In this document: positions 1-64,000 of the stretch, piece after piece
Position numbering within the stretch: position 1 is the stretch's first letter
Layout: each line of letters starts with the position of its first letter
Assembly: GCA_022376925.1 (NCBI GenBank)
Contig: JAIOJX010000006.1
Coordinates: forward strand, 58,551,394-58,615,393
DNA: 64,000 nucleotides
Source: Tragulus kanchil
Taxonomy: Eukaryota > Chordata > Mammalia > Artiodactyla > Tragulidae
Reading direction: 5' to 3'
Program-made: the position numbers and the translations under genes
Notes under the pieces: model-generated
Seen by the model: only the letters and a program-made list of their open reading frames with translations
What the model was told of the DNA's origin: nothing
Databases searched by the model: none

Positions 1-663
1 ATAGTGGCTATATCAGTTCACATTCTCACTCACAATGCAAGAGGGTTCCCTTTTCTCCACACCCCTTCCAGCATTTATTGCTTACAGACTTTTTGATGAT
101 AGCCATTCTGACTGGTGTAAGGTGATACCCAATTGTAGTTTTGCATTTCTCTAACAATGAGTGATGTTGAGCATCTTTTCATGTGTTTGTTGGGTATCTG
201 TATGTCTTCTCTGGAGACGTGTCAGTTTAGGTCTCTTTCCTACTTTTTGATTGGGTTGTTCTTTTTTTTTTCTTTTTTTGGTGTTGAGTTGTCTGAGTTG
301 CTTATATATTTTCGAAATGAATTCTTCCTTGGTTTTTTTCATTTGCTATTATTTTCTCCCATTCTGAAAGTTCTATTTTCACCTTGTTTATGATTTCTTT
401 TGCCTTTTCAGCTTCATTATGTCCCACTTGTCTATGTTTATTTTAATTTCCATTACTCTAAGAGGTGGGTCATAGAAGATCTTGCTTTGATTTATGTCAC
501 TGAGTGTTCTGCCTAAGTTTTCCTCTAAGAGTTTTAAGGTCTCTGGCCTTATATTTACGTCTTTAATCCATTTTGAGTTTATCATTCTGCATGGTGTTAG
601 GTAGAGTTCCAGCTTCATTCTTTTACATGTAGCTGTCCAGTTTTCCCAGCACCAATTATGAAG
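1..663 (-). mobile_element. L1 ORF2 3' fragment (minus strand)
   Basis: Reading the minus strand gives L1 ORF2 C-terminal sequence. The open stretch at 388-681 contains WCWENWTATCKRMKLE and INSKWIKDVNIRPETLKLLEEN, which are typical of the part of ORF2p beyond the reverse transcriptase. Towards position 1 the fragment runs into the Cys-rich end of ORF2 (the complement of the segment around 'PVRMAI'). Stops and frameshifts show it is dead. It is interrupted at 664 by a Bov-tA SINE. Most of it is repeated at 1193-1755 (see the duplication entry). Confidence 0.85.
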
Positions 664-779
664 TACTGGAGTGGGTGGCATTTCCTTCTCTAGGGCATCT
701 TCCTGACCTAGGAATCAAATCTGAATCTCCTGCATTGCAGGCAAATTTTTTACCATCTGAACTACTCATGGAGGCCTCA
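664..779 (-). mobile_element. Bov-tA SINE fragment
   Basis: Complement of the Bov-tA tRNA-like head and central part: the phrases tactggagtggg, cttcctgacctaggaatc and cctgcattgcaggc are diagnostic. It is truncated and diverged. It sits between L1 pieces of opposite orientation. A second copy at 1756-1871 belongs to tandem duplication 1. Confidence 0.8.
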
Positions 780-780
780 A

Positions 781-967
781 TGTATAAGACAAATATTAGC
801 AACTATAAAAGGGGAAATTGACAATAACACAATAATAGTGGGGCATTTTAACAACCAACTCACACCAATGGACAGATCATCCAGACAGAAAATTGTTAAG
901 GAGACAGAAGCTTTAAATGTATATTGGATCATATGGTTCTAATTGATATTTATAGGACACTTCATTT
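781..967 (+). mobile_element. L1 ORF2 endonuclease-domain fragment
   Basis: Plus-strand translation resembles the L1 endonuclease segment around [15 protein letters not shown] and the following DLIDIYRTFH, with the catalytic Asp-Phe-Asn degenerated to GHFNNQ. Its orientation is opposite to the L1 piece at 1-663, so the pair may come from one inverted L1 insertion or from two insertions. Repeated at 1873-2059 by duplication 1. Confidence 0.7.
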
Positions 968-1192
968 AAAAATTTTGTAATTTGTATTATGGAAATTATA
1001 GTCATCAGCTAAACAAATACATTGAGCTCTATGCTGTGTACTAGAAGACGTGCTGACAGCAGATGAAGTCAATAATAAGTAGCAGAAATTGGCCTATAAT
1101 TAATTGCAAAGTGTGTGCTGAAATTTTAAGAAGGACAAATTTGTCCATTTCGGAAATAAGCAATGGGTAATATTTACTGATTTTGGTTGATT

Positions 1193-2059
1193 AGCCATTC
1201 TGACTGGTGTGAGGTGATACCCAATTGTAGTTTTGCATTTCTCTAACAATGAGTGATGTTGAGCATCTTTTCATGTGTTTGTTGGGTATCTGTATGTCTT
1301 CTCTGGAGACGTGTCAGTTTAGGTCTCTTTCCTACTTTTTGATTGGGTTGTTCTTTTTTTTTTCTTTTTTGGGTGTTGAGTTGTCTGAGTTGCTTATATA
1401 TTTTCGAAATGAATTCTTCCTTGGTTTTTTTCATTTGCTATTATTTTCTCCCATTCTGAAAGTTCTATTTTCACCTTGTTTATGATTTCTTTTGCCTTTT
1501 CAGCTTCATTATGTCCCACTTGTCTATGTTTATTTTAATTTCCATTACTCTAAGAGGTGGGTCATAGAAGATCTTGCTTTGATTTATGTCACTGAGTGTT
1601 CTGCCTAAGTTTTCCTCTAAGAGTTTTAAGGTCTCTGGCCTTATATTTACGTCTTTAATCCATTTTGAGTTTATCATTCTGCATGGTGTTAGGTAGAGTT
1701 CCAGCTTCATTCTTTTACATGTAGCTGTCCAGTTTTCCCAGCACCAATTATGAAGTACTGGAGTGGGTGGCATTTCCTTCTCTAGGGCATCTTCCTGACC
1801 TAGGAATCAAATCTGAATCTCCTGCATTGCAGGCAAATTTTTTACCATCTGAACTACTCATGGAGGCCTCAATGTATAAGACAAATATTAGCAACTATAA
1901 AAGGGGAAATTGACAATAACACAATAATAGTGGGGCATTTTAACAACCAACTCACACCAATGGACAGATCATCCAGACAGAAAATTGTTAAGGAGACAGA
2001 AGCTTTAAATGTATATTGGATCATATGGTTCTAATTGATATTTATAGGACACTTCATTT
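1193..2059. mobile_element. Second copy of the L1(-)/Bov-tA(-)/L1(+) block
   Basis: Offset 1092 copy of positions 101-967: L1 minus at 1193-1755, Bov-tA minus at 1756-1871, L1 endonuclease fragment plus at 1873-2059. Differences from copy 1 are minimal, for example one T to G change beside the poly-T at about 1370. Probably not a separate genomic locus. Confidence 0.85.
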
Positions 2060-2472
2060 AAAAATTTTGTAATTTGTATTATGGAAATTATAGTCATCAG
2101 CTAAACAAATACATTGAGCTCTATGCTGTGTACTAGAAGACGTGCTGACAGCAGATGAAGTCAATAATAAGTAGCAGAAATTGGCCTATAATTAATTGCA
2201 AAGCGTGTGGTACTGATTACAATTTCTAAGAAGGACTGATGAGTAAGATGTAAAGGAATCCACCATGGTTTCCAAAAGGTGACATAATTAAGCTTATTTA
2301 AGCAATGGGTAATATTTACTCAGACAACAAGGATAAAGTATGAATTAGATTGGAAGGATGTTGGAGACCTGACTAACTAGAATGATTTTAGAGTGAAATT
2401 GGGGAATTAATTTTAATTTGGTGATGGTATTCTAAGAAAAATACAGAAGCTTACAGTGTTAAATTAAGAGTT
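2060..2472. other. No recognised feature
   Basis: AT-rich sequence without a repeat family or open frame that I recognise. The first 150 bases belong to copy 2 of duplication 1. The phrase taagcaatgggtaatattt at about 2299 recurs in garbled form at 1157-1176, inside the junction of that duplication. Confidence 0.5.
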
Positions 2473-6272: not shown

Positions 6273-6850
6273 TGTGGGGCTCTGAATTGAAAGAGGACCG
6301 TTGCAAGCATAAAGAAGCTTAAGCACATGTTTGCAGTTTGGAGCTAAGATGGCGCCTACAGGAAGGGGTGTGGGAGTGAAAAGAAGCTTAAGCACATTGT
6401 TTCAGCTTGGAGCTAAGATGGCGCCTACAGGAAGGGACGTGGGAATGAAGGGAAGCTTAAATGCATTGTTTAAAGAAGCTTAAGCACATGTTTGCAGCTA
6501 AGATGGCACCTACAGGAAGAGACAGGGCGTGATCTAAATTGTTAATTGATGGTCAAAATTTCTGATTGATTCCCTTGGTTTCCACGCTCATGAATGATTG
6601 CTTGGCCTTTAGCTTGATTGGTGTAATCTATAGGAAGTCCCGTGCAAAACCCCCTTCACTTGTCTATAAAAGCTGTAGATCTACATCAATAAACCAGAAC
6701 TACTTCGATGGAACCCCTGTCGCGTCTGATTGTCCTCTGCCTGAGCCAGGGGGCTGCGGGGCAGACAGTCAAGATTTGCCTTTCTCCAAGATCTCCTGGG
6801 TCAGCCAGGGGCAATCCCGCTGCCTTCCCTTTCTGCGGAAGGTCCCCGCA
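6273..6850 (+). mobile_element. Solo LTR with U3 repeats (class II-like)
   Basis: Begins TGTGGGGC and ends CCCCGCA (578 bp), flanked by TCATG at 6268-6272 and 6851-6855. U3 holds three tandem units starting 'agaagcttaagcacat', each with a YY1-like motif (AAGATGGCGCC at 6346 and 6415, AAGATGGCACC at 6500). TATAAAA at 6665-6671 and AATAAA at 6688-6693 are 23 bp apart. The U5 start 'tgtcgcgtctgattgtc' is shared with the LTR at 35020. The 3' part is copied at 7690-7938 by duplication 2. Confidence 0.85.
6306..6525 (+). promoter_or_regulatory. U3 tandem repeat array with YY1-like sites
   Basis: Three imperfect units spaced 69 and 85 bp, each 'agcttaagcacat.gttt.cag...gctaagatggc[ga]cctacagg'. The AAGATGGCGCC core fits the YY1 consensus. 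Array repeats in U3 are typical of LTR enhancers. Activity is inferred, not shown. Confidence 0.55.
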
Positions 6851-6855
6851 TCATG

Positions 6856-7651
6856 AATCTATTTAGTATTCTGGTAAGGTCTATTAATTCCCTTCTCAGA
6901 ATAATGTTTTTAAAGGCATAGATTACTCAGGATAACAAGAGAACTGGTTATACTGAAATACAATTTTAAGACATTAAAATTAAATTGATTGTATACTATT
7001 ATTCTTCCTTTTTAACTATTGCATTAAGTAATAAAACCTAGTGCCAAGTCAGTAGCAAAGAATTTAAAAATCATGATGAACAAAATTGTATTTTAGATGC
7101 CTGCAATGCTGAAAGGTATTATCTGTGATTTTTAATGGTGACAGAGTCAGAGTTACTACTGATATACATCTATGATCTCTGGCCGATTTTAATAATTAAG
7201 CATAATACTAATTTTCAGTTATAGGTATTGAAAAACAAAGATGTCATTTCTTCCCCATACATAAGGGAATAGCCTGGTATACTTACAAGTGGTAGAAAGG
7301 AAAGATACACAACCAAGAAGGATTTTATTTAAGAAAGCTACCTGACAAGGCTTCCATTCAGGCTTGAAGGAGAGATCAAAAGTTCTACAGGCTCGCAAGG
7401 AACTCAGCATCATGAAACCAGTTTTACAGGAAATGTTGAAAGGCCTTTTCTTAATAGAAAATGAAAAGCCACAACTAGAAATATCAAATGGATGAAAGGA
7501 AAGATCTTAATGACTAAGGCAAGTATATAGTGAAGTTAATATATCAACCATACATAGAGCTAGTAGGAATGTTAAAAGACCAAAGTAGTAATATCTATAT
7601 CCACAGTAAGTAATTAATGAATACACAAAGCAAAGGTATGTAAAATATTAG
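6856..7651. other. Unique AT-rich sequence (copied at 7944-8739)
   Basis: No recognised family. Incidental minus-strand open frame at 7219-7413 (copied at 8307-8501) lacks any family signature. Confidence 0.5.
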
Positions 7652-7689
7652 TAATTAATGAATACACAAAGCAATAGTCATGAATGAGC

Positions 7690-7938
7690 TTGGCCTTTAG
7701 CTTGATTGGTGTAATCTATAGGAAGTCCCGTGCAAAACCCCCTTCACTTGTCTATAAAAGCTGTAGATCTACATCAATAAACCAGAACTACTTCGATGGA
7801 ACCCCTGTCGCGTCTGATTGTCCTCTGCCTGAGCCAGGGGGCTGCGGGGCAGACAGTCAAGATTTGCCTTTCTCCAAGATCTCCTGGGTCAGCCAGGGGC
7901 AATCCCGCTGCCTTCCCTTTCTGCGGAAGGTCCCCGCA
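7690..7938 (+). mobile_element. Partial second copy of LTR 6273-6850
   Basis: Duplicate of 6602-6850, including TATAAAA and AATAAA, produced by duplication 2. It lacks the U3 repeats, so it is not an independent insertion. Confidence 0.88.
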
Positions 7939-8849
7939 TCATGAATCTATTTAGTATTCTGGTAAGGTCTATTAATTCCCTTCTCAGAATAATGTTTTTA
8001 AAGGCATAGATTACTCAGGATAACAAGAGAACTGGTTATACTGAAATACAATTTTAAGACATTAAAATTAAATTGATTGTATACTATTATTCTTCCTTTT
8101 TAACTATTGCATTAAGTAATAAAACCTAGTGCCAAGTCAGTAGCAAAGAATTTAAAAATCATGATGAACAAAATTGTATTTTAGATGCCTGCAATGCTGA
8201 AAGGTATTATCTGTGATTTTTAATGGTGACAGAGTCAGAGTTACTACTGATATACATCTATGATCTCTGGCCGATTTTAATAATTAAGCATAATACTAAT
8301 TTTCAGTTATAGGTATTGAAAAACAAAGATGTCATTTCTTCCCCATACATAAGGGAATAGCCTGGTATACTTACAAGTGGTAGAAAGGAAAGATACACAA
8401 CCAAGAAGGATTTTATTTAAGAAAGCTACCTGACAAGGCTTCCATTCAGGCTTGAAGGAGAGATCAAAAGTTCTACAGGCTCGCAAGGAACTCAGCATCA
8501 TGAAACCAGTTTTACAGGAAATGTTGAAAGGCCTTTTCTTAATAGAAAATGAAAAGCCACAACTAGAAATATCAAATGGATGAAAGGAAAGATCTTAATG
8601 ACTAAGGCAAGTATATAGTGAAGTTAATATATCAACCATACATAGAGCTAGTAGGAATGTTAAAAGACCAAAGTAGTAATATCTATATCCACAGTAAGTA
8701 ATTAATGAATACACAAAGCAAAGGTATGTAAAATATTATGTCATGATAGTATATGGGGGTGGACTGCTAAAATTCATTTGAACTTAGAACAGCAGCTTAA
8801 AATATCCATGTATGCCATAGATGCTATATATAGCCCTCATGATAACCAC

Positions 8850-13964: not shown

Positions 13965-14147
13965 TATTCACTTAAAAAGACTTTCTTATCTCTCCTTGAT
14001 GTTCTTTAGAACTCTGCATTCAGATGGGTGTACCTTTCCTTTTCTCCTTCACCTTTAGCATCTCTTCTTTTCTCAGCAATTTGTAAAGCCTCCTTAGACA
14101 ACTATTTTTCTTGTTGCATTTCTTTTTCTTGGATTATTTGCTTGGAT
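13965..14147 (-). mobile_element. BovB LINE fragment, inverted
   Basis: Complement of an internal BovB segment: 'gaactctgcattcagatggg', 'tttccttttctccttcacct' and 'cctccttagacaac...ttgcatttctttttcttgg'. It abuts plus-strand BovB at about 14150, so it is either a 5' inversion of the same insertion or a separate insertion. Confidence 0.72.
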
Positions 14148-16271
14148 TTTGTGTGTGCACCCCAACCCGAGGAAAGGAACCCCACAAGACACTGAGCCAG
14201 ACTCACCTGTGATTCTTTCAAGGTCTCCTGTGGCGGCATGGGTCAGCAGTGACCTGCCACAGAAACAGAGGCACTATCAGCAGCACTCCCAGGTGGTATG
14301 GCATGGAGTATAACTCCTCTTGAAGGTAGTCACCATTATTCCCATCATAGAACCACTGTGTTGGTGATGCACAAACTGGAGAACAGTCATACCAAAGCAG
14401 TGATAGCACTGTTGTGAATCTTCTAGATCCCACAATAGACTTTCCGACTTGGGGATCTGGAGAAGGCACTGAGACTCTCCAGGATATCTGACTTTGAAAG
14501 TCAGTAGGATTTGATTACAGAATTTCCTCAGGAAATTGGAAATTCTGGTGAAACAGACAGTTTTGGAAGGCACAAACAAAACCTTATGTGTAAGAGACCC
14601 AGAAGAATGGAGCAGTGACCACATAAGAGACTGAGCAGATTTCCCTGTGTCTATTTGAGAGTCTCTAATGGAAGGGTCGGCTGACTGGCACACTGTAGGG
14701 CCAGGGGCACTGACAGCAGCATTTCTGGGAGGCACAGAATGTCAGCATAAATCTTCTTGGTGGATATTGGCATTAGGCCTAACACAGAGATGATAGCCCT
14801 TCCATAAAGAATAGAAGACTCTGTGACTGGACCACCTCAGGTCAATACAGGGAGGGAGTAACAGCCCCATACATCAGCAGAAATTTGGATTAAAGAATTA
14901 CTCAGCATGTCCCTGCCCTCAGAACAAGACTGTTTTCCTTACAGCCAGCCCCTCCCATTAGGAAGTTTGTACAAGCCTCTTATCCTCATTCATAAGAAGG
15001 CACACAGAATGGAAATCACAGTCATAGAAAAGTAACCAATATATTCACATGGATGACAGACTTGTATAACTCAATGCAGCTATGAGTCATCTAGGGCCAC
15101 CTAAGATAGATCAGTTATGGTGTCAAGTTCTAACAAAACATGTTCCATTGGAGAATAGAAAAGAGCAATATATTCACTGGGCCTTGTTTAAAAAATCCTT
15201 AGACAACTATTTTTCTTGTTGCATTTCTTTTTCTTGGATTATTTGCTTGGATTTTGTGTGTGCACCCCAACCCGAGGAAAGGAACCCCACAAGACACTGA
15301 GCCAGACTCACCTGTGATTCTTTCAAGGTCTCCTGTGGCGGCATGGGTCAGCAGTGACCTGCCACAGAAACAGAGGCACTATCAGCAGCACTCCCAGGTG
15401 GTATGGCATGGAGTATAACTCCTCTTGAAGGTAGTCACCATTATTCCCATCATAGAACCACTGTGTTGGTGATGCACAAACTGGAGAACAGTCATACCAA
15501 AGCAGTGATAGCACTGTTGTGAATCTTCTAGATCCCACAATAGACTTTCCGACTTGGGGATCTGGAGAAGGCACTGAGACTCTCCAGGATATCTGACTTT
15601 GAAAGTCAGTAGGATTTGATTACAGAATTTCCTCAGGAAATTGGAAATTCTGGTGAAACAGACAGTTTTGGAAGGCACAAACAAAACCTTATGTGTAAGA
15701 GACCCAGAAGAATGGAGCAGTGACCACATAAGAGACTGAGCAGATTTCCCTGTGTCTATTTGAGAGTCTCTAATGGAAGGGTGGGCTGACTGGCACACTG
15801 TAGGGCCAGGGGCACTGACAGCAGCATTTCTGGGAGGCACAGAATGTCAGCATAAATCTTCTTGGTGGATATTGGCATTAGGCCTAACACAGAGATGATA
15901 GCCCTTCCATAAAGAATAGAAGACTCTGTGACTGGACCACCTCAGGTCAATACAGGGAGGGAGTAACAGCCCCATACATCAGCAGAAATTTGGATTAAAG
16001 AATTACTCAGCATGTCCCTGCCCTCAGAACAAGACTGTTTTCCTTACAGCCAGCCCCTCCCATTAGGAAGTTTGTACAAGCCTCTTATCCTCATTCATAA
16101 GAAGGCACACAGAATGGAAATCACAGTCATAGAAAAGTAACCAATATATTCACATGGATGACAGACTTGTATAACTCAATGCAGCTATGAGTCATCTAGG
16201 GCCACCTAAGATAGATCAGTTATGGTATCAAGTTCTAACAAAACATGTTCCATTGGAGAATGGAATGGCAA
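14091..16271. repeat. Direct tandem duplication 3 (unit about 1.07 kb)
   Basis: Positions 14091-15165 recur at 15196-16271 with offset 1105. The only clear differences are single bases, such as C/G at 14678/15783. The spacer 15166-15195 ('agaaaagagcaatatattcactgggcc...') is a compressed version of the sequence that follows copy 2 (16272-16375). Confidence 0.9.
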
Positions 16272-16321
16272 ACCACTTCAGCTTTCTTGTCTTGAGAAAT
16301 CCATAAACAGTACAAAAAGGC
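14150..16321 (+). mobile_element. BovB LINE 5' region (with duplication)
   Basis: Matches the BovB 5' portion: 'agcagcactcccaggtggta', 'tggaccacctcaggtcaata', 'catacatcagcagaaatttgg', 'tctagggccacctaag', 'ccattggagaatggaatggc'. Sequence continues after the LTR at 18298, so the LTR interrupts it. Antisense open frames of 83 and 152 codons here are incidental. Length is inflated by duplication 3. Confidence 0.8.
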
Positions 16322-18076
16322 TGTCTTGGGCACACTTTGGAGAATTCCTAGGAATATACTGGGCCTTAGGGTATAAGAAATTAGTGATGAAGGGAGTGAC
16401 TCAGACGATCCTCAAACCCTAGATAAGCTCTTGAGACCCAGAAGACCTTTGGAAAGTGATGTTAGCTCAGATGGGGTCGAAGAGTGGGTGAATATGATGA
16501 TACCTAAAGTGGCATATATACTAACCCTAAAGTGAATAAGTTTATCTCTAAGAGAAATTACAACCAGGTGAGCCAAAGCTCGTCCTCCAGCAATGAGGAA
16601 TTTGTAACTCACCACCAGCCGCCTTGGCAGAGTTCTACCCACAAGCAAAGCTTGAAAGCTGCTAGTAAATAAGAAAAGCCCTAATGGCAACATTCCAACC
16701 TTATCTACTTACTTTCCTAAGAACAAGTTAGCTTAATGCTTGACCTGAGTAACCTGCTCTGGTCTAGCTCATGATTGTAAGCTCGCATGGAAGCCAGGAG
16801 CAGTGTTTTTCCTTTGATCTCTTAGGATTGTAACTAGAAGTAGAAGTAAAAGTATATGCAGCTGTGTCTGAGATTTTTCCTATAAGTGGGGGGAGAGTAG
16901 ATTGTATGAGAGCTCACTCACAGAACCTAGCTGCGTCTGAGGTGAGGTTGAAGCTCTCCAGCTCTGGGGTAAGATCTTTCTCTTCACATTTGATTGAGCT
17001 CTGATACCCAAAATGACCCATGTAAAAGGAGGAGTAACAGCCCCATACATCAGCAGAAATTTGGATTAAAGAATTACTCAGCATGTCCCTGCCCTCAGAA
17101 CAAGACTGTTTTCCTTACAGCCAGCCCCTCCCATTAGGAAGTTTGTACAAGCCTCTTATCCTCATTCATAAGAAGGCACACAGAATGGAAATCACAGTCA
17201 TAGAAAAGTAACCAATATATTCACATGGATGACAGACTTGTATAACTCAATGCAGCTATGAGTCATCTAGGGCCACCTAAGATAGATCAGTTATGGTATC
17301 AAGTTCTAACAAAACATGTTCCATTGGAGAATGGAATGGCAAACCACTTCAGCTTTCTTGTCTTGAGAAATCCATAAACAGTACAAAAAGGCTGTCTTGG
17401 GCACACTTTGGAGAATTCCTAGGAATATACTGGGCCTTAGGGTATAAGAAATTAGTGATGAAGGGAGTGACTCAGACGATCCTCAAACCCTAGATAAGCT
17501 CTTGAGACCCAGAAGACCTTTGGAAAGTGATGTTAGCTCAGATGGGGTCGAAGAGTGGGTGAATATGATGATACCTAAAGTGGCATATATACTAACCCTA
17601 AAGTGAATAAGTTTATCTCTAAGAGAAATTACAACCAGGTGAGCCAAAGCTCGTCCTCCAGCAATGAGGAATTTGTAACTCACCACCAGCCGCCTTGGCA
17701 GAGTTCTACCCACAAGCAAAGCTTGAAAGCTGCTAGTAAATAAGAAAAGCCCTAATGGCAACATTCCAACCTTATCTACTTACTTTCCTAAGAACAAGTT
17801 AGCTTAATGCTTGACCTGAGTAACCTGCTCTGGTCTAGCTCATGATTGTAAGCTCGCATGGAAGCCAGGAGCAGTGTTTTTCCTTTGATCTCTTAGGATT
17901 GTAACTAGAAGTAGAAGTAAAAGTATATGCAGCTGTGTCTGAGATTTTTCCTATAAGTGGGGGGAGAGTAGATTGTATGAGAGCTCACTCACAGAACCTA
18001 GCTGCGTCTGAGGTGAGGTTGAAGCTCTCCAGCTCTGGGGTAAGATCTTTCTCTTCACATTTGATTGAGCTCTGAT
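15960..18076. repeat. Direct tandem duplication 4 (unit about 1.05 kb)
   Basis: Positions 15960-17005 recur at 17031-18076 with offset 1071. The unit starts in BovB and ends in the LTR. The 25-bp spacer 17006-17030 (acccaaaatgacccatgtaa...) matches neither flank well. Overlaps duplications 3 and 5, forming a chain of three. Confidence 0.9.
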
Positions 18077-22008: not shown

Positions 22009-22054
22009 AAATCATTTTACTAAGCTTCAATGTTTTAGAACACTGATGATATTT

Positions 22055-23113: not shown

Positions 23114-23159
23114 AAATCATTTTACTAAGCTTCAATGTTTTAGAACACTGATGATATTT

Positions 23160-41620: not shown

Positions 41621-41740
41621 TGGGCTTTTGTTGATAAGAAGTGGGGTGTTCCTTGGTATGATCTGAGAAATACACAGATATCTACCTACAAAAATGCCTG
41701 CATCCTGCCACTTACCCATTTGATTCAGTTTTGAAGCTAA

Positions 41741-47238: not shown

Positions 47239-48276
47239 AAAACTCTGAATGGTTTTAAGTTATGCAATTTATACATCTAGAAACTTCATCTTTGATTTTA
47301 AAAAGATAAACTCTGAATGGTGGGAGAAAAAGACAAGGATCAGGAGTATGTTTGGATGAACAAAGATAGGAGAAGAACTAGAGATCCATAGCTATGCGCT
47401 TGTTGGAGTCCAACATTCAGAAGGCTTTCAAAGTGTGAGGGAAGGCTAAATGAGGAGACTGTTCTAAGAAGTCAGTAGGGTAAGCTTGAAGCATTCATCT
47501 TTTGACAACTAATCAGAGTTCTGTAATTCCATTATCCTAATGCTTTTATTCATTCAAACATCTCCTTGAGTCAACTGATGCCCCATTGAAAACAGACATT
47601 CCACAGCTTTCAAATAATATATTCCTTTAAAATGCAAAGTCTTGGGACTTCCCTGGCAGTCCAGGGGTTAAGACTCTGCATTTCCAATGCAAGGGGCACA
47701 GGTTCAATCCCTGGTCGACAAAGGAAGATCCCACATGTCTTGTGGCACGGCCAAAATAAATAAATAAATAAAATAAAAATGTTTTAAAAATAAAATAAAA
47801 TGCAAAGTCTTCAAATGTAAGCTATTGAATATAAATGTGCATATTTTTATTATTTGGTTGAGTTACTATGATCGTAAAAACGGAGCATGAGCTGAGCTGT
47901 AACACTGGTGAGACTTTTAATAATGTTTTCCTATGCTTGATTGGTGTCTTAAATATCTCTCCTTCAGCTTACTGATTTCAAGATTTTATTTACATTCACT
48001 TAATAAAACAAGAAAGTCATTTTTAACAGACGTGTGCATCTTTACAAAAAATATACTTAAGGATTTTCACAAGACGCAGATGATATTCTTTTCTGAAGAC
48101 ACAATTTATAAAGTTGAATCCCTGAATTTATGATGAAATAACATACAGTAAGAGAAACTAAAAGAACTTTAAAAGCATCAGGGGAACTACACATGAGATC
48201 ACTATCTTTAGTTCAAGGGGAATTCCTTATCAAATTTGGGCCAAGAATTCCCCTTAATAGAAATTTGGAATAAAAA

Positions 48277-51260: not shown

Positions 51261-52441
51261 GCTTTTGGAGGAATGACTATACTGAAGTTTGAAAACTAAG
51301 GATTTGGAGGAATGACTATATTGAAGATGATTATGGAAATATGTTTTAAAAATCAGTGCAAAATAAGATCAGATACCAAAGAGTAACTTAAGAGGATAAC
51401 AAATAAGAAACATTTAAAGATATGAAATATCTGGAACATCTTTTTATTTGGAAAGTTTAAGGTTAATTTTTGAAGAGGTTAAATTCTGTAGAGGGATAGT
51501 AGGTAGAATCCAAATTGCAAAAAGTTAATGAATGAAAATGTAGGAAGAATTTTGTAGACTATGTTTCAGTGAATCTGATGAGGAGAGGCTTAGCATACTG
51601 GCTCAGGAGAGTTCAGGTTATGCAGAGTGCTGAGTGTTTGTTTACAGCTGGAGAAATTTTGGTCATGTATATAGGCAAAGAGGGAAAAATGAAGGTTAAA
51701 GAATTTGTATAGATGACCAAATAAAAATATGAGAGAAAACATTTGGAGAGTTAGCCTTGAATGAAGTCAAAGCCTATTTCTTGAAGGTAAAAAGAACATG
51801 GAAGAATACCAGGTCATTTCTGACGTGAATAGAATGCTGAGGTAGCTTTTGGCCTCAATAAAAATACCCCAAACCACAGAGATTTAAGGGAGAAAAAAAA
51901 ATCCAGTTTGATAGCTGTGAAAAGTAGAAAATACTTTAAATAAGAGCTTTGAGTAAAGTAATAAGGTTTTAATTAAGGATGAGCAGAAATAACTCATCAG
52001 AAGTGAGGGTCTAGATCTGTTTGTAATGGTACAAGGTGACCCCATTTTATGTCTTTCTTCAAGACTACTTGGCAGCCTAGAAATAGAAAATGATTAAATG
52101 ATTGTGTCCATTTTAAAAATTATGTTAAACTGAAGGATATTAAACTATGCATTTAAAAACTTCACATTTTATCTATTCAAGGGTCATCACAGTTAAACTT
52201 CCCTTGCATTGCATTCTATGTGCACTACAAGGCTGTAGCAAACTAGAGCACTTTGTCATCCATATTCTATATATGTATCATGTAAGTACAGCAAACAGTA
52301 ATATAACTTATATATTGTGACATAAATAAAATGTATATATTGATGTTACTAGCATCTTCTGTACACATTGAAAAACAATTAACGTAGGAATCTGTTAAAG
52401 TAATACCTTATAATTTGTTACTTAAAAGTATCTCAAAAGTT
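51261..52441. other. No recognised feature
   Basis: AT-rich. An imperfect direct repeat 'tttggaggaatgactata' occurs at about 51269 and 51303. From 51797 on the sequence is copied at 52958. Confidence 0.5.
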
Positions 52442-52459
52442 ACAATGGGGAAACTGTTT

Positions 52460-52754
52460 GGGGGAGGAGGGGGTTGGGGAGGAAGGGAGGCAGGTGGGCC
52501 ACCTCCATTGGTCTTTCATTTATCTATTTTTATCCATCGTTGTTCTTTGGCCCGTGTGGGCCTCCCATCGCAGTGGCCTCTGTTGTCGCAGAACACCGGT
52601 TCTGGGCACACACTCTCCAGAGCTCTGGCTCAGTAATTGGACACATCGGTCCAGCTGCTCCACAGCACATGGGATCTTCCCAAGCCAGGGATCAAACTGG
52701 TGTCCTTTGCACTGCAAGGCGGTGCCCTTACCCACTGGACCACCAGGGAAGCCC
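52460..52754 (-). mobile_element. Young CHR-like SINE, copy 9
   Basis: Complement, from 'gggggaggagggggttgggg' to 'ccaccagggaagccc'. Imperfect TSD acaatggggaaactgttt (52442-52459) and acaacagggaaactttttt (from about 52756). Copied at 53617-53911 by duplication 12. Confidence 0.9.
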
Positions 52755-53616
52755 CACAACAGGGAAACTTTTTTAAAAATAAATTCTCACTTCAGATCCC
52801 AAATGATAAATTTTGACTAAAAGCCAGCCTACATGAATGATTCATGTGCTTAACACCTTCTTAGCATTTATGTATATTGGTTTTGCTATGCCCATTTTTA
52901 CTTGTTTATATGTCACATTTTAATTTTAATGGTTGCTTTCTTCTTGCCATATGAATGCATGGAAGAATACCAGGTCATTTCTGACGTGAATAGAATGCTG
53001 AGGTAGCTTTTGGCCTCAATAAAATACCCCAAACCACAGAGATTTAAGGAGAAAAAATCCAGTTTGATAGCTGTGAAAAGTAGAAAATACTTTAAATAAG
53101 AGCTTTGAGTAAAGTAATAAGGTTTTAATTAAGGATGAGCAGAAATAACTCATCAGAAGTGAGGGTCTAGATCTGTTTGTAATGGTACAAGGTGACCCCA
53201 TTTTATGTCTTTCTTCAAGACTACTTGGCAGCCTAGAAATAGAAAATGATTAAATGATTGTGTCCTTTTTAAAAAATTATGTTAAACTGAAGGATATTAA
53301 ACTATGCATTTAAAAACTTCACATTTTATCTATTCAAGGGTCATCACAGTTAAACTTCCCTTGCATTGCATTCTATGTGCACTACAAGGCTGTAGCAAAC
53401 TAGAGCACTTTGTCATCCATATTCTATATATGTATCATGTAAGTACAGCAAACAGTAATATAACTTATATATTGTGACATAAATAAAATGTATATATTGA
53501 TGTTACTAGCATCTTCTGTACACATTGAAAAACAATTAACGTAGGAATCTGTTAAAGTAATACCTTATAATTTGTTACTTAAAAGTATCTCAAAAGTTAC
53601 AATGGGGAAACTGTTT

Positions 53617-53911
53617 GGGGGAGGAGGGGGTTGGGGAGGAAGGGAGGCAGGTGGGCCACCTCCATTGGTCTTTCATTTATCTATTTTTATCCATCGTTGT
53701 TCTTTGGCCCGTGTGGGCCTCCCATCGCAGTGGCCTCTGTTGTCGCAGAACACCGGTTCTGGGCACACACTCTCCAGAGCTCTGGCTCAGTAATTGGACA
53801 CATCGGTCCAGCTGCTCCACAGCACATGGGATCTTCCCAAGCCAGGGATCAAACTGGTGTCCTTTGCACTGCAAGGCGGTGCCCTTACCCACTGGACCAC
53901 CAGGGAAGCCC
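53617..53911 (-). mobile_element. Young CHR-like SINE, copy 9 duplicate
   Basis: Offset 1157 duplicate of 52460-52754, same flanks and TSDs. Not a separate insertion. Confidence 0.9.
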
Positions 53912-54109
53912 CACAACAGGGAAACTTTTTTAAAAATAAATTCTCACTTCAGATCCCAAATGATAAATTTTGACTAAAAGCCAGCCTACATGAATGATTC
54001 ATGTGCTTAACACCTTCTTAGCATTTATGTATATTGGTTTTGCTATGCCCATTTTTACTTGTTTATATGTCACATTTTAATTTTAATGGTTGCTTTCTTC
54101 TTGCCTGCA

Positions 54110-54595
54110 GGATCTTTCCACTTTCACTTCATTCTCCACGTTGCTCTTGTGTTATATTTTTGAAGCATAAACTTCTATAATGTCAATAGTCTACTTGAAA
54201 GTTGCTATCACCTCCCATCATCACCCTTGTCTATGGCACAGAGTCTAAATTATAAAGAGGGAACATACAATCCAATATTATGTGTTCTCAGGTGTCTCAA
54301 ACATGCTAAGTCAGCCCCATTCTTCCTGTTAGTCATCTCCACTCCCTTTTTAGTTGAACTATATTGAATAATTTGCCATTTGCACAATATAGTATACTGT
54401 GATATATACTGTTGTCTCTGAGAAATACAATTCTTCCCTCACTGCATTTGGAAGTCTCTTAATCACTCTTTAAAATCTGCTTAGCTCAAATATGATAATT
54501 TCTAGAAGTCTCCTCTGACTGTCTAGGCAAATTAATCTGCCTTCTTCGTACCTGTGCAGTTTCATATGTGCCTTAATTATAGTATAGTTTACATT
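54110..54595. mobile_element. Ancient L2 LINE remnant
   Basis: 'tagtcatctccactcccttt', 'aatctgcttagctcaaatat', 'agaagtctcctctgactgtc', 'gcagtttcatatgtgcctta' follow the L2 3' region. The part from 54391 is copied at 55491. Confidence 0.6.
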
Positions 54596-54599
54596 GATG

Positions 54600-54772
54600 T
54601 AGTGGTGAAGAATCTGCTTAATATTACAGGAGTCACAGGTTTGATCCCTGGGTCAGGAAGATCCCTTGGAGTAGGAAATAGCAACCCTCTCCAGTATTCT
54701 TGCCTGGAAAATTCCATGGACAGAGGAGTTTAGCTACAATCCATGGGGTTTCAAAGGATTGGACACAACTGT
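54600..54772 (+). mobile_element. Bov-tA SINE
   Basis: 'agtggtgaagaatctgctta', 'tttgatccctgggtcaggaa', 'tccagtattcttgcctggaa', 'aaggattggacacaactgtg'. Followed directly by a CA microsatellite. Copied at 55700-55872. Confidence 0.9.

Positions 54773-54805
<33 letters not shown>
54773..54805. repeat. (CA)n microsatellite at Bov-tA tail
   Basis: About 16 CA units; identical length in the duplicate at 55873-55905, which is unusual for independent loci and supports a very recent or artefactual duplication. Confidence 0.92.
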
Positions 54806-54808
<3 letters not shown>

Positions 54809-54989
54809 TTACATTGCATAATGATCTGCATGGATATCATTACACAAATTGTTTCACTTAACATTTCACCTACAAGTCATTTAATTTCACCAACATTCCA
54901 AATGCCTGTTATATATCAGCTACTGATCTGGGGAGACTGAACAAGGCCTAGGACTTGTCCTTTGGATCACAGTTCTCTTACTAGACTCT

Positions 54990-55380
54990 AACCTTATCCA
55001 GCTTACTGATCAAGTGTCCCAGAAAATGTGAACAGCTCTCCATTCGTGTTGAAATTTTACCTTCCCATCTCTTTCTCCTTGCAGCCACTCTGTTCCCTAT
55101 CCTTGGAATGCATCCTTTTCCTGGTTGAAAGCAAGCGTTAACTTCTTAGGCACCAACTCAAATTCTACTTCCTACTTAGGGTCATCTTAGTCTGGAATCT
55201 AATATGGGGGTCTTCATCCTTTGAACCCCAACATTTTCTTTGCAATTTTCATCTATTACTTTGTTAACACATTTCTATTGCAATGATTTGTGTTCTGTCT
55301 TTTTCTCTTTTTTTGCAATAAAAATCTATAGTTTATCTGTATTTCATCTTGTAATAGCAGACATGAATCCACAAACATTT
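54990..55380. mobile_element. Ancient L2 LINE remnant
   Basis: 'ccctatccttggaatgcatc', 'gcaccaactcaaattctact', 'tgcaataaaaatctatag' follow the L2 pattern. Copied at about 56090-56480. Confidence 0.55.
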
Positions 55381-55699
55381 GTTTGATTATGTTAGATGAT
55401 TCATCTTAATAAGGATTTTTAAAAAAAGGTCGATCTTTTGTAATTTTTAAAACTCTGTTTATGGTTCATTTATTCACTTTTCTTTGCACTAGTATACTGT
55501 GATATATACTGTTGTCTCTGAGAAATACAATTCTTCCCTCACTGCATTTGGAAGTCTCTTAATCACTCTTTAAAATCTGCTTAGCTCAAATATGATAATT
55601 TCTAGAAGTCTCCTCTGACTGTCTAGGCAAATTAATCTGCCTTCTTCGTACCTGTGCAGTTTCATATGTGCCTTAATTATAGTATAGTTTACATTGATG

Positions 55700-55872
55700 T
55701 AGTGGTGAAGAATCTGCTTAATATTACAGGAGTCACAGGTTTGATCCCTGGGTCAGGAAGATCCCTTGGAGTAGGAAATAGCAACCCTCTCCAGTATTCT
55801 TGCCTGGAAAATTCCATGGACAGAGGAGTTTAGCTACAATCCATGGGGTTTCAAAGGATTGGACACAACTGT

Positions 55873-55905
<33 letters not shown>
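55700..55905 (+). mobile_element. Bov-tA SINE and (CA)n, second copy
   Basis: Offset 1100 duplicate of 54600-54805. Confidence 0.9.
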
Positions 55906-55908
<3 letters not shown>

Positions 55909-56513
55909 TTACATTGCATAATGATCTGCATGGATATCATTACACAAATTGTTTCACTTAACATTTCACCTACAAGTCATTTAATTTCACCAACATTCCA
56001 AATGCCTGTTATATATCAGCTACTGATCTGGGGAGACTGAACAAGGCCTAGGACTTGTCCTTTGGATCACAGTTCTCTTACTAGACTCTAACCTTATCCA
56101 GCTTACTGATCAAGTGTCCCAGAAAATGTGAACAGCTCTCCATTCGTGTTGAAATTTTACCTTCCCATCTCTTTCTCCTTGCAGCCACTCTGTTCCCTAT
56201 CCTTGGAATGCATCCTTTTCCTGGTTGAAAGCAAGCGTTAACTTCTTAGGCACCAACTCAAATTCTACTTCCTACTTAGGGTCATCTTAGTCTGGAATCT
56301 AATATGGGGGTCTTCATCCTTTGAACCCCAACATTTTCTTTGCAATTTTCATCTATTACTTTGTTAACACATTTCTATTGCAATGATTTGTGTTCTGTCT
56401 TTTTCTCTTTTTTTGCAATAAAAATCTATAGTTTATCTGTATTTCATCTTGTAATAGCAGACATGAATCCACAAACATTTGTTTGATTATGTTAGATGAT
56501 TCATCTTAATAAG

Positions 56514-57236
56514 GAAGGCTCTTGAATAAAACATCACCTAATATGGTCATTGAATCCTCTATTTATACAAAGTACCAGGTGTTTTTAAAGCTCTGTTTAT
56601 GGTTCATTTATTCACTTTTCTTTCTTTTTGTAAATAGTTTTTTCCTATGAAAACATAAGGGAGACTTTGACTTCCTAAAATAGAGTTATATAGATTCTGA
56701 TTGTTACTTGATATTCAAGTGATTATTCCTTTCTGTAACTGTCTGGTTTCATTACTCCATTCTATTCAATTTTTAAACAAAATTTTAATTTTCCAAGCCT
56801 ACTAATGCTACTATTTTTATGCCAGTACTATCCTTTATCCATCCACAGATGATGTTTATAGAAGACAGCTTTGTTTTTATTCAATAAAAATGCATTTAGA
56901 AGAAAAGTGGCACATGCACATCTTTGACTTTCAGTGTTAAACTTGGCACATTATCACTTGAGGCTGGCAGACCCCACTATGCTTGCTTTGTCATCCTCCA
57001 TTATGTGCTGTGGTAGTACAGCGAACACCTGTGACCACACAAAAGACCATACACAGCAGCTGCAGGACTCAGATGTCCATGCTGAAATAAATTACTAAAG
57101 CTGAAATAGTTGGATCTGTGACTGGTTGTTTTTGTGAGCCTTTTAGGAATTGTTGGGATTTCCTGGTGCTGCATAGTGATACATATGAAGTGTCCAGGGT
57201 TGGCTTACTCTGTGATTTTTTGGCTATTTCTGATTC
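56514..57236. other. No recognised feature
   Basis: Mixed sequence. From 56998 on it is copied at 58117. No gene recognised. Confidence 0.5.
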
Positions 57237-57357
57237 ATTTTATCTTATTTTTCTGTCACGTGGCTTGCAGGATCTTAATTCCCTAACCAGGGATGGAACC
57301 TTGGCTCCGGCAGTGAAGGTACTGAGCTTTAACCACTGAACTTTCAGGGAATTTCCT
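57237..57357 (-). mobile_element. CHR-type SINE fragment
   Basis: Complement: 'gtggcttgcaggatcttaat', 'ccaaccagggatggaacctt'-like and 'gagctttaaccactgaactt'. Copied at about 58356-58476. Confidence 0.7.
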
Positions 57358-57394
57358 GGCTATCTCTGATTCAATTTAAAGGTGGAAGTCTTCA

Positions 57395-57665
57395 TTGGTA
57401 GCATAGTATAGTGTGTTGAGCACAGATTTTGAAGTCAAACTACCCATATTTGAAACCTGGATCTGCCAGGAACTTGCTGTATGATCTTGAAAAAGTTATT
57501 TAACCTCTGTAGATCTCAGATTTGTTATTTTTACAGAAAGAAATAGTAATACACTACCACAAAATGCCGTGTTGGTGAAATGAGTTAAGATATGTATAGT
57601 TTTAGAACCATGCCTGCATATTGTATGCCCTATATAAGTGTTTGCTATTATTATTAAAGTCTACA
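57395..57665 (-). mobile_element. MIR SINE
   Basis: Complement-sense MIR in order: 'gagcacagattttgaagtca', 'gaaacctggatctgccagga', 'atttaacctctgtagatctc', 'gaaatgagttaagatatgta', ending 'gtgtttgctattattatt'. Nearly full length. Copied at about 58514-58785. Confidence 0.8.
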
Positions 57666-59299
57666 TTTTTGAAAAACCTCAGACACTACTAGAAAGCAAC
57701 ATTCTTCTAATATCTATGACTAGCATTTTCACTGTAATTTCTCTTTCCATTTGCCTTTCATAGCATATGCTCCTCATTTATAAAAAATGAATGAATCATC
57801 AAAAACACACTGGACTTACACTTAACCCTGGTGAATTTAGAACAAAATATGTTAGAATTCCCCCCAGTTTTAGAATCTTTTAAGAACATATTTTGCCACT
57901 TATTTATATAGTCACAGGTTGTTATGTTAAAATTAGAAAAACAATTTTTTCTTAGTTCAGGTATAAATAACTTAAGTGACAACATGTCAGATATTTCATG
58001 GGTCCCATGTATGTCCTTGAAGTCAAGCATTCCTGACCATTCATTCCTGAGCGTGAGAAACTCCAGATCATCATCGCCTACAATAGCCAGTAAATGATGG
58101 TACATGACCATTCATTCCATTATGTGCTGTGGTAGTACAGCGAACACCTGTGACCACACAAAAGACCATACACAGCAGCTGCAGGACTCAGATGTCCATG
58201 CTGAAATAAATTACTAAAGCTGAAATAGTTGGATCTGTGACTGGTTGTTTTTGTGAGCCTTTTAGGAATTGTTGGGATTTCCTGGTGCTGCATAGTGATA
58301 CATATGAAGTGTCCAGGGTTGGCTTACTCTGTGATTTTTTGGCTATTTCTGATTCATTTTATCTTATTTTTCTGTCACGTGGCTTGCAGGATCTTAATTC
58401 CCTAACCAGGGATGGAACCTTGGCTCCGGCAGTGAAGGTACTGAGCTTTAACCACTGAACTTTCAGGGAATTTCCTGGCTATCTCTGATTCAATTTAAAG
58501 GTGGAAGTCTTCATTGGTAGCATAGTATAGTGTGTTGAGCACAGATTTTGAAGTCAAACTACCCATATTTGAAACCTGGATCTGCCAGGAACTTGCTGTA
58601 TGATCTTGAAAAAGTTATTTAACCTCTGTAGATCTCAGATTTGTTATTTTTACAGAAAGAAATAGTAATACACTACCACAAAATGCCGTGTTGGTGAAAT
58701 GAGTTAAGATATGTATAGTTTTTAGAACCATGCCTGCATATTGTATGCCCTATATAAGTGTTTGCTATTATTATTAAAGTCTACATTTTTGAAAAACCTC
58801 AGACACTACTAGAAAGCAACATTCTTCTAATATCTATGACTAGCATTTTCACTGTAATTTCTCTTTCCATTTGCCTTTCATAGCATATGCTCCTCATTTA
58901 TAAAAAATGAATGAATCATCAAAAACACACTGGACTTACACTTAACCCTGGTGAATTTAGAACAAAATATGTTAGAATTCCCCCCAGTTTTAGAATCTTT
59001 TAAGAACATATTTTGCCACTTATTTATATAGTCACAGGTTGTTATGTTAAAATTAGAAAAACAATTTTTTCTTAGTTCAGGTATAAATAACTTAAGTGAC
59101 AACATGTCAGATATTTCATGGGTCCCATGTATGTCCTTGAAGTCAAGCATTCCTGACCATTCATTCCTGAGCGTGAGAAACTCCAGATCATCATCGCCTA
59201 CAATAGCCAGTAAATGATGGTACATGCTTTAGTCTTTGTTTCATTATCATTATGCATGCCATTTTTATTCATGTATAAAACTTAATTTGATATAGGTAC

Positions 59300-60806: not shown

Positions 60807-60985
60807 CCATCATAAGAACTTTGATTTTCATTGACTGTTTAGGAAGCTATTGAATAGTTTGAGGCAGAGGCTACCTATCTGAAAAAGTTATTGCCACCTG
60901 AGTATTGCGTTATGAGGATACAAATTGGGGTAAGGACAGAAAGAGAATAATCAATTAAGAAGCTACAGTAGCAATCCACAGCAAT
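60807..60985 (+). mobile_element. L2 LINE, 3' side of LTR insertion
   Basis: 'aggcagaggctacctatctg' and 'gaagctacagtagcaatcca' match the L2 segment '...aggctactgcaataatcca'. Continuity with 59300-59647 confirms the LTR insertion. Confidence 0.55.
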
Positions 60986-61180
60986 GACCTACTCTATAGC
61001 ATAGGGAATGCTGCACAATATTGTGTCTTAACCTGAATGAGAAAATAATTTATAAAATAATAGACACATGTACATGTATAGCTGAATCACTTTGCTGTAC
61101 ACCTGAAACCAACACACCATTGCTAATCAACTATGCTCCAATGTAAAATAAAAATTAAAAAAGAAAAAATAATAAAGAAT
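60985..61180 (+). mobile_element. L1 3' end fragment
   Basis: 'gacctactctatagcatagg', 'gctgaatcactttgctgtac', 'cctgaaaccaacacaccatt' and an A-rich end. Copied at 62122-62317. Confidence 0.82.
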
Positions 61181-62023
61181 ACTAAAATAATAATACAGCA
61201 TACCAAATATACAAAATAATAATCTTGTTATGTCAAGTAATAATAATAAAGAATACCAAAATAGTAGAGACCAGAGCAGATAAGAACAAAAAAAGGAAGC
61301 TATTGTCAAACAACAGCTAGCTTACATATGATGGTGTCTCTGCCTTTTATCTACTTTTTATTTGAATTAGTATGTAAGTCACAAAACAAAGTTAAATCAT
61401 ATATGCACAGCCAATTAAACGTTTGGAAATATGTGTAAACGTATTCTAAGGTTAACAGTGTTATTGTTCCAAGTTTAAGTTCCAAAGTCCATATCTATTA
61501 CTTTACAAATGATATAAAGCAGCATAAAACAAACAAAAAAGCTAAATATAACTTGAGATAAGTAAAATTATTTTGTTATTTTTATTCACCTACATGTATA
61601 TATACATAAACAGTAAAACTTCCATACACTTAGATGTCCTTGAGAAATATTTTAAAAAGGCATCTGATGGTAAAAGCAAACAATCTGTACTTTGATATTT
61701 CATATTAGAGGTTTTTGATCAGGATTATGGTCATAGTGTACCCTGAAGAACAGAAAATATCATTGTTTATATAGAAAGACTTGAGTTCTACTTTTTCTAG
61801 TAATTGGAAGGAATAGTTCATTATTACTGTGAAAGATAAGAAAACTAAAGCTTTGTTAGGTCATTTTAGTTTCTAGAAATGTAGTATATCAAGTGTAAAC
61901 TCCTGTATTCTGGGTATAATAGATTTAAAATAAATGCTATTTCCATGGTACTCATACTTACATTCTTATATAGATACTGAAATCCACTTCTCCATTTTAG
62001 TGAGTTATTTTTATGAATCATTT
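61181..62023. other. AT-rich sequence, copied at 62318-63160
   Basis: ATAATAAT-rich start (L1 tail), then unassigned sequence. No gene recognised. Confidence 0.5.
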
Positions 62024-63242
62024 GGTTTTTTTTAATAGCCATTTTAGCAAACTGAAACAAATTGGGGTAAGGACAGAAAGAGAATAATCAATTAAGAAGC
62101 TACAGTAGCAATCCACAGCAATGACCTACTCTATAGCACAGGGAATGCTGCACAATATTGTGTCTTAACCTGAATGAGAAAATAATTTATAAAATAATAG
62201 ACACATGTACATGTATAGCTGAATCACTTTGCTGTACACCTGAAACCAACACACCATTGCTAATCAACTATGCTCCAATGTAAAATAAAAATTAAAAAAG
62301 AAAAAATAATAAAGAATACTAAAATAATAATACAGCATACCAAATATACAAAATAATAATCTTGTTATGTCAAGTAATAATAATAAAGAATACCAAAATA
62401 GTAGAGACCAGAGCAGATAAGAACAAAAAAAGGAAGCTATTGTCAAACAACAGCTAGCTTACATATGATGGTGTCTCTGCCTTTTATCTACTTTTTATTT
62501 GAATTAGTATGTAAGTCACAAAACAAAGTTAAATCATATATGCACAGCCAATTAAACGTTTGGAAATATGTGTAAACGTATTCTAAGGTTAACAGTGTTA
62601 TTGTTCCAAGTTTAAGTTCCAAAGTCCATATCTATTACTTTACAAATGATATAAAGCAGCATAAAACAAACAAAAAAGCTAAATATAACTTGAGATAAGT
62701 AAAATTATTTTGTTATTTTTATTCACCTACATGTATATATACATAAACAGTAAAACTTCCATACACTTAGATGTCCTTGAGAAATATTTTAAAAAGGCAT
62801 CTGATGGTAAAAGCAAACAATCTGTACTTTGATATTTCATATTAGAGGTTTTTGATCAGGATTATGGTCATAGTGTACCCTGAAGAACAGAAAATATCAT
62901 TGTTTATATAGAAAGACTTGAGTTCTACTTTTTCTAGTAATTGGAAGGAATAGTTCATTATTACTGTGAAAGATAAGAAAACTAAAGCTTTGTTAGGTCA
63001 TTTTAGTTTCTAGAAATGTAGTATATCAAGTGTAAACTCCTGTATTCTGGGTATAATAGATTTAAAATAAATGCTATTTCCATGGTACTCATACTTACAT
63101 TCTTATATAGATACTGAAATCCACTTCTCCATTTTAGTGAGTTATTTTTATGAATCATTTTTAAAGTATATTTTGTTGTTTTGCAAATTAGACTTATTTA
63201 GCAATGTATGCCATATACAGAACAAACTGAAACAAACTTTTT

Positions 63243-63568
63243 TTTTTTTTTAAAGATTTATTTATTTATTTATTTTGGGGGGGTGGGGTGGGGAGGGAGG
63301 GGAGCAGATGGGCTACTTCTATTGGTCTTTCATTTGTCTATTTTCATCCATCTTTGTTCTTTGGCCCATGTGGACCTCCCATCGCGGTGGCCTCTGTTGT
63401 CGCAGAGCACCAGCTCTGGGTGCATGCACTCCAGAGCTCCGGTTCGGTAATTGGACACATCAGTCCAGCAACTCTGTGGCACGTGGGATCTTCCCAGGCC
63501 AGGGATCAAACTGGCCCCCCTTGCACTGCAAGGCGGTGTCCTTACCCACTGGACCACCAGGGAAGCTC
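63243..63568 (-). mobile_element. Young CHR-like SINE, copy 10
   Basis: Full-length complement, from poly-T/(TTTA)n to 'ccaccagggaagctc'. Perfect 15-bp TSD tgaaacaaacttttt at 63228-63242 and 63569-63583. Confidence 0.93.
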
Positions 63569-63639
63569 TGAAACAAACTTTTTGACATAAGATGATTCTA
63601 TTGACATAATTAATTTTCAATGAATGCTCTAAGTCACAG

Positions 63640-63860
63640 GGGTTAGAAAGCTTCTCTAAAGGGTCTGGTTATATGCATATTTAGGTTTTGTGGACTGTAC
63701 ATTTTCTGCTATAACTACTCAGTGCTGCCATTTTAGTGAGATGCAAGCCACAGATGATACATAAATGAGTGTGTGGCTGTTCTCCGATGCAATTTTATTA
63801 GCAAAAAGTACTGACCAGAATGGATCCTACAGATGTAGTTTGCTCAGTCCTGTTCTAGAA
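63640..63860. mobile_element. Old hAT-Charlie-type DNA transposon remnant
   Basis: 'ttaggttttgtggactgtac', 'ataactactcagtgctgcca', 'gatgcaagccacagatgata', 'gtggctgttctccgatgcaa' and 'gtagtttgctcagtcctgtt' follow a common mammalian MER-type hAT consensus as I remember it. Degraded and non-coding. Confidence 0.55.
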
Positions 63861-64000
63861 GTTAGGAGTGAAAAGTTTCAGGTACATGAATATTTGTGGT
63901 AAGTGGTAAATTCTAGTTAGTAATGATGCTCAAAGGCACAATTCTCAGAGTTGGTCCTGTCTTATGCCCTTCAGCATTATCCATTCCACGTTCATTTCCA

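Follow-up and report, generated by a model that had tools for sequence, protein, structure and literature searches.

The closest described counterparts of the pattern analyzed here are the homotype false duplications of the Vertebrate Genomes Project (VGP), which, in the passages of its reports cited here, are placed near contig boundaries and include a false doubling of exons in GABRG2; a figure legend traces a false duplication in a hummingbird assembly to a bug in the FALCON algorithm (PMC8081667, PMC9516828). Most published false duplications lie beside a gap, and the copies are sometimes joined without one (PMC9516828). Further characteristics of the class are very low read depth over the copies and a k-mer copy number exceeding that of the reads.

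We analyzed a window of 64,000 nt (the whole stretch of DNA under study) from an assembly of 3.17 Gb, in which near-identical copies of about 1.1 kb follow each other in tandem. Biological tandem duplication with microhomology likewise produces copies in direct orientation that abut each other and share a few bases at the junction, and both kinds of origin are considered below.

Tandem pairs in the window

Self-BLAST of the window recovered 15 direct, abutting tandem pairs with copies 98.3–100% identical, offsets of 1036–1161 bp (mean 1105.1, sd 29.4, n = 15), aligned copy lengths of 1017–1152 bp and distances from the end of the first copy to the start of the second of −17 to +74 bp. An earlier note on this DNA had reported 15 near-identical direct tandem duplications with units of about 1.0–1.16 kb that fill about half of the window; the measured offsets agree with it to within a few bases, and the copies occupy 31,612 of the 64,000 bases (49.4%). 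The pairs are as follows.

D1, 82..2209, + strand: copies 82-1117 and 1174-2209; offset 1092; 99.2% identity
D2, 6588..8738, + strand: copies 6588-7650 and 7678-8738; offset 1090; 99.8% identity
D3, 14091..16265, + strand: copies 14091-15160 and 15196-16265; offset 1105; 99.7% identity; chained to D4
D4, 15956..18076, + strand: copies 15956-17005 and 17028-18076; offset 1072; 99.9% identity; chained to D3 and D5
D5, 17790..20038, + strand: copies 17790-18913 and 18915-20038; offset 1125; 99.9% identity
D6, 22009..24218, + strand: copies 22009-23117 and 23114-24218; offset 1105; 99.4% identity
D7, 27500..29700, + strand: copies 27500-28601 and 28599-29700; offset 1099; 100% identity; L1 ORF2, endonuclease part doubled
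D8, 29635..31859, + strand: copies 29635-30729 and 30764-31859; offset 1129; 99.9% identity; L1 ORF2; chained to D9
D9, 31573..33769, + strand: copies 31573-32677 and 32661-33769; offset 1088; 98.3% identity; L1 ORF2
D10, 40895..43151, + strand: copies 40895-42024 and 42014-43151; offset 1119; 99.0% identity
D11, 46222..48276, + strand: copies 46222-47238 (1017 bp) and 47258-48276 (1019 bp); offset 1036; 99.8% identity
D12, 51797..54105, + strand: copies 51797-52948 and 52958-54105; offset 1161; 99.4% identity
D13, 54390..56515, + strand: copies 54390-55415 and 55490-56515; offset 1100; 100% identity
D14, 56997..59226, + strand: copies 56997-58106 and 58116-59226; offset 1119; 99.9% identity
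D15, 60917..63160, + strand: copies 60917-62023 and 62054-63160; offset 1137; 99.8% identity

Where pairs are chained (D3/D4, D4/D5 and D8/D9), about 290–310 bp stand in triplicate, and D7 and D8 overlap by 66 bp. At 95% identity or more and a length of at least 60 bp, the repeats listed for the window include nothing else apart from short matches of 310, 287 and 66 bp, which follow from the chaining of pairs. Junctions are separated by stretches of 1.8–9.4 kb, and no gap letters (N) occur within the window or mark its junctions. A 3′-end motif of ruminant SINEs and the Rfam models, the latter at gathering scores, gave no matches in the window. The pairs D7–D9 all sit inside a single L1 ORF2, in which the protein coordinates step back at each pair; in a Pfam search of seven translated frames, two matched (both L1) and five had no match, two of these also being L1.

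The window copies differ by 47 events, 27 of them substitutions and 20 including a gap. The homopolymer-type differences reported earlier are borne out among the gap-containing events, 12 of which are single-letter homopolymer changes, but do not describe the whole set, in which substitutions are in the majority. The outer 10% of the copies holds 21 of the 47 events (14 of 32 without D9), and the differences of D9 are confined to its first 192 and last 12 bases. At the eight junctions with at least 12 bases between the copies (the other seven had too few), the tail of the first copy resembled the true continuation overlaid with noise in three cases at p < 0.05 (D1, D3 and D8), whereas at this threshold no such remnant was found in the other five tails or in any of the eight heads of second copies; these remnants lean slightly towards a technical origin. 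Four junctions (D6, D7, D9 and D10) have 3–17 bases in common between the copies, and three (D2, D11 and D14) carry short, locally repeated bits.

The pattern across the assembly and in conserved genes

The earlier note had proposed looking for the same pattern throughout the assembly. In a seeded sample of 20 ten-kb stretches, searched for pairs with offsets of 950–1300 and identity of at least 95%, all 20 carried one or more complete pairs. The 49 complete pairs have offsets of 1066–1218 (mean 1110.7, sd 28.8) and a median identity of 99.6%, the lowest value being 97.8%. Copies make up 55% of the sampled bases and second copies 31%, from which we estimate that the real sequence amounts to about 2.2 Gb. 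A broader search for direct repeats (at least 97% identity, at least 300 bp, offsets of 50–10,000) placed 61 of 66 rows at offsets of 1000–1299 and the other five at 2100–2299, approximately the sum of two chained offsets, with none below 1000; inverted repeats (95%, 300 bp) were absent from the sample. Because near-identical direct repeats occur in the sample only near an offset of about 1.1 kb or at two such offsets added together, chance is excluded as their source.

Exons of well-known gene families are affected in the same manner. Three of the eight p53-family exon groups are doubled, at offsets of 1094, 1094 and 1149–1158, and the two places concerned correspond to pairs in which 1096 and 1153 bases align at 99.8 and 99.7% identity, respectively. 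Among the T-box exon groups, 15 of 37 occur more than once, at an offset matching that of the window pairs. The additional exon copies in both families are presumably false.

Origin of the pairs

Given the presence of the pattern in all sampled stretches and the doubled exons of well-known gene families, the pairs are almost certainly false duplications created during assembly by unmerged overlaps of consensus units, in keeping with the technical cause favored in the earlier note; the constant size and the crowding of differences at copy ends are, like these two features, direct observations. The contig was very probably built as a chain of consensus units that were made separately, with about 1.1 kb common to each successive two. 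Merging of this common stretch would have broken down at a great number of joints; with the units placed end to end, the common 1.1 kb would then stand twice in a row. The shared stretch would thus mark where two assembly units overlap rather than anything inherent in the DNA. Against this explanation, failure at so many joints is, in our judgement, unusual, and the window junctions lack N, unlike most of the false duplications covered in PMC9516828.

A different technical route, in which a scaffolder joined overlapping contig ends or gaps were filled with reads repeating the flanks, involves no fixed unit. It would produce abutting near-identical copies of the same appearance, the three noisy tails resemble read sequence, and incorrect gap filling between false duplications is among the cases reported in PMC9516828. 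However, ordinary contig overlaps should vary widely, whereas the offset is nearly constant in the window and the sample (sd 29), and the distances between junctions are very short for long-read contigs. Since the overlap is so constant and the window is free of N, gap filling, the other technical variant raised in the earlier note, fits less well than unmerged overlaps, and we regard this route as very improbable. Still further from what we observe would be real tandem duplication through a hitherto unknown mechanism whose step is fixed at 1.1 kb, the probability of which we consider negligible. The direct, abutting arrangement, the shared bases at four junctions and the local repeats at three others speak for such a process, but real duplications should span a range of sizes and ages, whereas the sample contains no second size class and its complete pairs all exceed 97% identity despite a search down to 95%. 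The same offset in every sampled stretch, the concentration of differences at copy ends and the doubled exons of conserved gene families also speak against it.

As to the program responsible for unmerged overlaps, an assembler of the wtdbg/wtdbg2 kind is a tentative guess, to which we give slightly less than an even chance. A node of wtdbg type is 1024 bp long, made up of four 256-bp bins, and two nodes may have no more than 256 bp in common. Bins of 256 bp are documented in PMC9902641. A sika deer assembly built with wtdbg v1.2.8 is an example of this route, with nothing linking it to the window. Spacings of pairs in the window (n = 14) seemed to fit a 256-bp grid (midpoints, p = 0.0001; ends, p = 0.0005; starts, p = 0.03); over a scan of periods of 180–420, the values were p = 0.0035, 0.014 and 0.55, respectively. 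The independent sample showed no such grid (p = 0.63–0.77, n = 29), and pooling window and sample gave p = 0.015–0.24. Insertions and deletions in the raw reads could obscure regular spacing. We therefore dropped the grid as evidence, its appearance in the window being probably due to chance, and the program remains only a guess. The open-licence literature searched yielded no description of unmerged wtdbg nodes.

Consequences and relation to known systems

The 1.1-kb pairs are best read as no biological feature; their significance lies in data quality. With second copies making up about 31% of the sampled sequence, genome size, gene models, exon counts and estimates of duplication and copy number are unreliable for this assembly, and apparent false exons are present in p53-family and T-box genes. 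The fingerprint, namely abutting direct pairs with an offset of about 1.04–1.22 kb and identity above 97%, can easily be screened for in further assemblies. In the portions covered of the open-licence literature (including PMC6341167, PMC9902641, PMC7026727, PMC10372904, PMC9516828 and PMC8081667), we found no description of false tandem duplication with a constant 1.1-kb unit. It is, in our view, an evenly balanced proposition that a systematic unit-joining failure of one assembler, undescribed in the literature searched, left a chromosome-scale mammalian assembly with about 1 Gb of false tandem copies of 1.1 kb, and that assemblies made by the same route share the fingerprint.

In wtdbg/wtdbg2, neighboring units share a node of 1024 bp, close to the smallest offset among the 64 pairs of window and sample (1036 bp); the mean offsets are 1105 and 1111, respectively. 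A maximum overlap of 256 bp implies a shortest spacing of 768 bp, and the smallest of the 43 spacings between neighboring pairs (681, 746, 755, 760 and 762 bp) lie near but below this value. Beyond the window, the 256-bp grid did not recur. Tandem duplications with microhomology are similar in their direct, abutting copies and in the few bases shared at some junctions, but differ in that here every sampled stretch is affected and no range of sizes or ages is apparent. Finally, the VGP cases, as far as the cited passages describe them, form a small part of an assembly, often have about the length of a read and lie mostly beside a gap, whereas here about 31% of the sample consists of second copies, unit length stays constant at close to 1.1 kb and the window junctions are gapless. 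Nevertheless, homotype false duplications share with our pairs the near-identical, uncollapsed copies on a single scaffold (15 of 15 pairs in the window) and the doubling of exons, here in 3 of 8 p53-family and 15 of 37 T-box groups, where we infer that the extra copies are false.

Tandem pairs in the window and across the assembly

Self-comparison of the 64,000-base window recovers 15 direct tandem pairs (D1–D15, numbered by position), 98.3–100% identical and offset by 1036–1161 bp (mean 1105 bp, sd 29, n = 15), so that the list of fifteen duplications in the earlier note proves correct. In these pairs, the end of one copy lies −17 to +74 bp from the start of the next. Bases within copies amount to 31,612 of the 64,000, and second copies make up 25.5% of the window. 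Beyond the pairs, the repeats listed for the window (at least 95% identity, at least 60 bp) comprise only three short matches, of 310, 287 and 66 bp, which arise because the pairs are chained: D3/D4, D4/D5 and D8/D9 overlap strongly, leaving about 290–310 bp present three times, and D7/D8 overlap by 66 bp. By eye, bits of about 11–24 bases at the junctions of D2 (7650–7678), D11 (47238–47258) and D14 (58106–58116) repeat sequence about 40–70 bases off, perhaps as joining or polishing noise. The window also holds two short arrays (6311–6471 and 35065–35198), with 2.3 and 2.0 copies of similar 68–69-bp units.

The pattern is not local. The genome-wide check asked for in the earlier note covered the first 20 of a seeded set of random positions, 10 kb each (200,000 bases on 13 contigs, with 208 N in one stretch), and found at least one complete pair in every stretch. 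The 49 complete pairs have offsets of 1066–1218 bp (mean 1110.7, sd 28.8) and a median identity of 99.6%. Among the 66 direct repeats in the sample (at least 97%, at least 300 bp), 61 lie at 1.0–1.3 kb and five at 2.1–2.3 kb, about two single offsets added; inverted repeats numbered zero. The assembly search that places the window at C7:58551394–58615393 likewise gave weak repeat matches, many of them paired about 1.07–1.15 kb apart on several contigs. Copies hold 55% of the sampled bases and second copies 31.1% (standard error 2.0 points), in a sample that comes from the lower parts of these contigs and is an imperfect genome average. Given 3,167,203,957 bases in 32 contigs, this implies about 2.18 Gb of real sequence (roughly 2.06–2.31); a chromosome-scale 3.17-Gb assembly may therefore contain just 2.2 Gb or so.

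Coding sequence carried by the pairs

D7–D9 lie in an L1 element, in which the ORF2 product reads as follows.

Segments of L1 ORF2, in order along the element
27849–28421: endonuclease part, matching the same kind of domain as the next
28948–29520: endonuclease part, letter-identical to the first, matching residues 6–161 of the solved LINE-1 ORF2 protein
next: residues 519–669
next: residues 850–934, repeated as 850–936
next: residues 1082–1209, then, in the same open frame, 879–936
last: residues 1082–1208, a second time

Each backward step in residue order is explained by D7–D9. In the frames read within 27500–33769, this L1 copy also jumps from residue 161 straight to residue 519, which looks like an internal deletion unrelated to the false pairs.

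Exons of conserved families are doubled as well.

Repeated exons in the assembly
C2:165378881–165380418: p53-family exons, twice; fetched and confirmed
C23:203341585–203342925: p53-family exons, twice; fetched and confirmed
C15:212315735–212318135: T-box exon, three times; assembly search

For the p53 DNA-binding family, 11 matches form 8 exon groups, three of them present twice (offsets 1094, 1094 and 1149–1158 bp); two adjacent exons on contig C2 are doubled together, and all three groups on C17 are single. Each of the two fetched places proved to hold one pair; the aligned lengths are 1096 and 1153 bases (99.8 and 99.7% identity). For the T-box family, our own grouping rule sorts 55 matches into 37 groups, 15 of which hold more than one copy, one of these being the C15 triplicate; the offsets of this triplicate and of the p53-family copies are 1.09–1.16 kb. 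One C27 group is really two overlapping exon matches, both doubled, and one C30 group, which carries stops, may be a pseudogene. The exon order of both families is conserved across vertebrates, and it is not credible that a living mammal has recently duplicated 18 of 45 exon groups at a single offset. That the source is a mammal is indicated by the L1, p53-family and T-box matches; the small number of very large contigs (up to 297 Mb, an inflated length) and zero matches to a pecoran SINE motif would, as a guess, suit an early-branching ruminant such as a mouse-deer.

Differences between copies and the proposed origin

The copies of D7 and D13 are wholly identical; the other 13 pairs differ by 1 to 15 events each. 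Of the 47 events in total, 27 are substitutions and the remaining 20 involve gaps, among them 12 homopolymer changes of a single letter. The outer 10% of copies holds 21 of the 47 (binomial p = 9e-10), or 14 of 32 without the aberrant D9 (p = 8e-7), p values that treat events as independent and counts that depend on where BLAST ends an alignment. Across the 1105 bases of D9, 12 of 15 events fall within the opening 192 and three in the last 12, with none between; one copy might have taken its beginning from different reads, which may stem from another L1.

The pairs are most simply explained by unmerged overlaps between consensus units. Contigs would be chains of consensus units, each having about 1.1 kb in common with the next, and where the common ends of neighbours were left unmerged, this stretch would be written twice. 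Such an origin would account for the constant offset, the abutting copies, the minimum spacing of 681 bp (n = 43), the minimum offset of 1036 bp (n = 64) and the differences at unit ends. At the eight testable junctions, three first-copy tails resemble a noisy version of the sequence that truly follows, a resemblance not seen in the other five tails or in any of the eight heads.

Comparison with known systems

In wtdbg-type assemblers, nodes are 1024 bp, are common to neighbouring layout units and overlap by at most 256 bp. Reads are cut into 256-bp bins, according to PMC9902641. The numbers of our pairs recall these bin and node sizes. Spacings in the window fit multiples of 256 (p = 0.0001 for midpoints, 0.0005 for ends, 0.03 for starts), but the 29 spacings of the independent sample do not (p = 0.63–0.77). 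Thus, the class of cause is near settled, whereas a program of the wtdbg type is a guess to which we give somewhat less than even chances.

In the literature searched, we found no description of exactly such a constant-size, extensive and gapless false duplication. The Vertebrate Genomes Project calls such under-collapsed sequence homotype false duplication, which, according to PMC8081667 and PMC9516828, often lies at contig boundaries, results in falsely doubled exons and was in one case traced to an assembler bug. Compared with those cases, the present pairs are unusual in their constant size, their extent and the lack of any gap at the window junctions.
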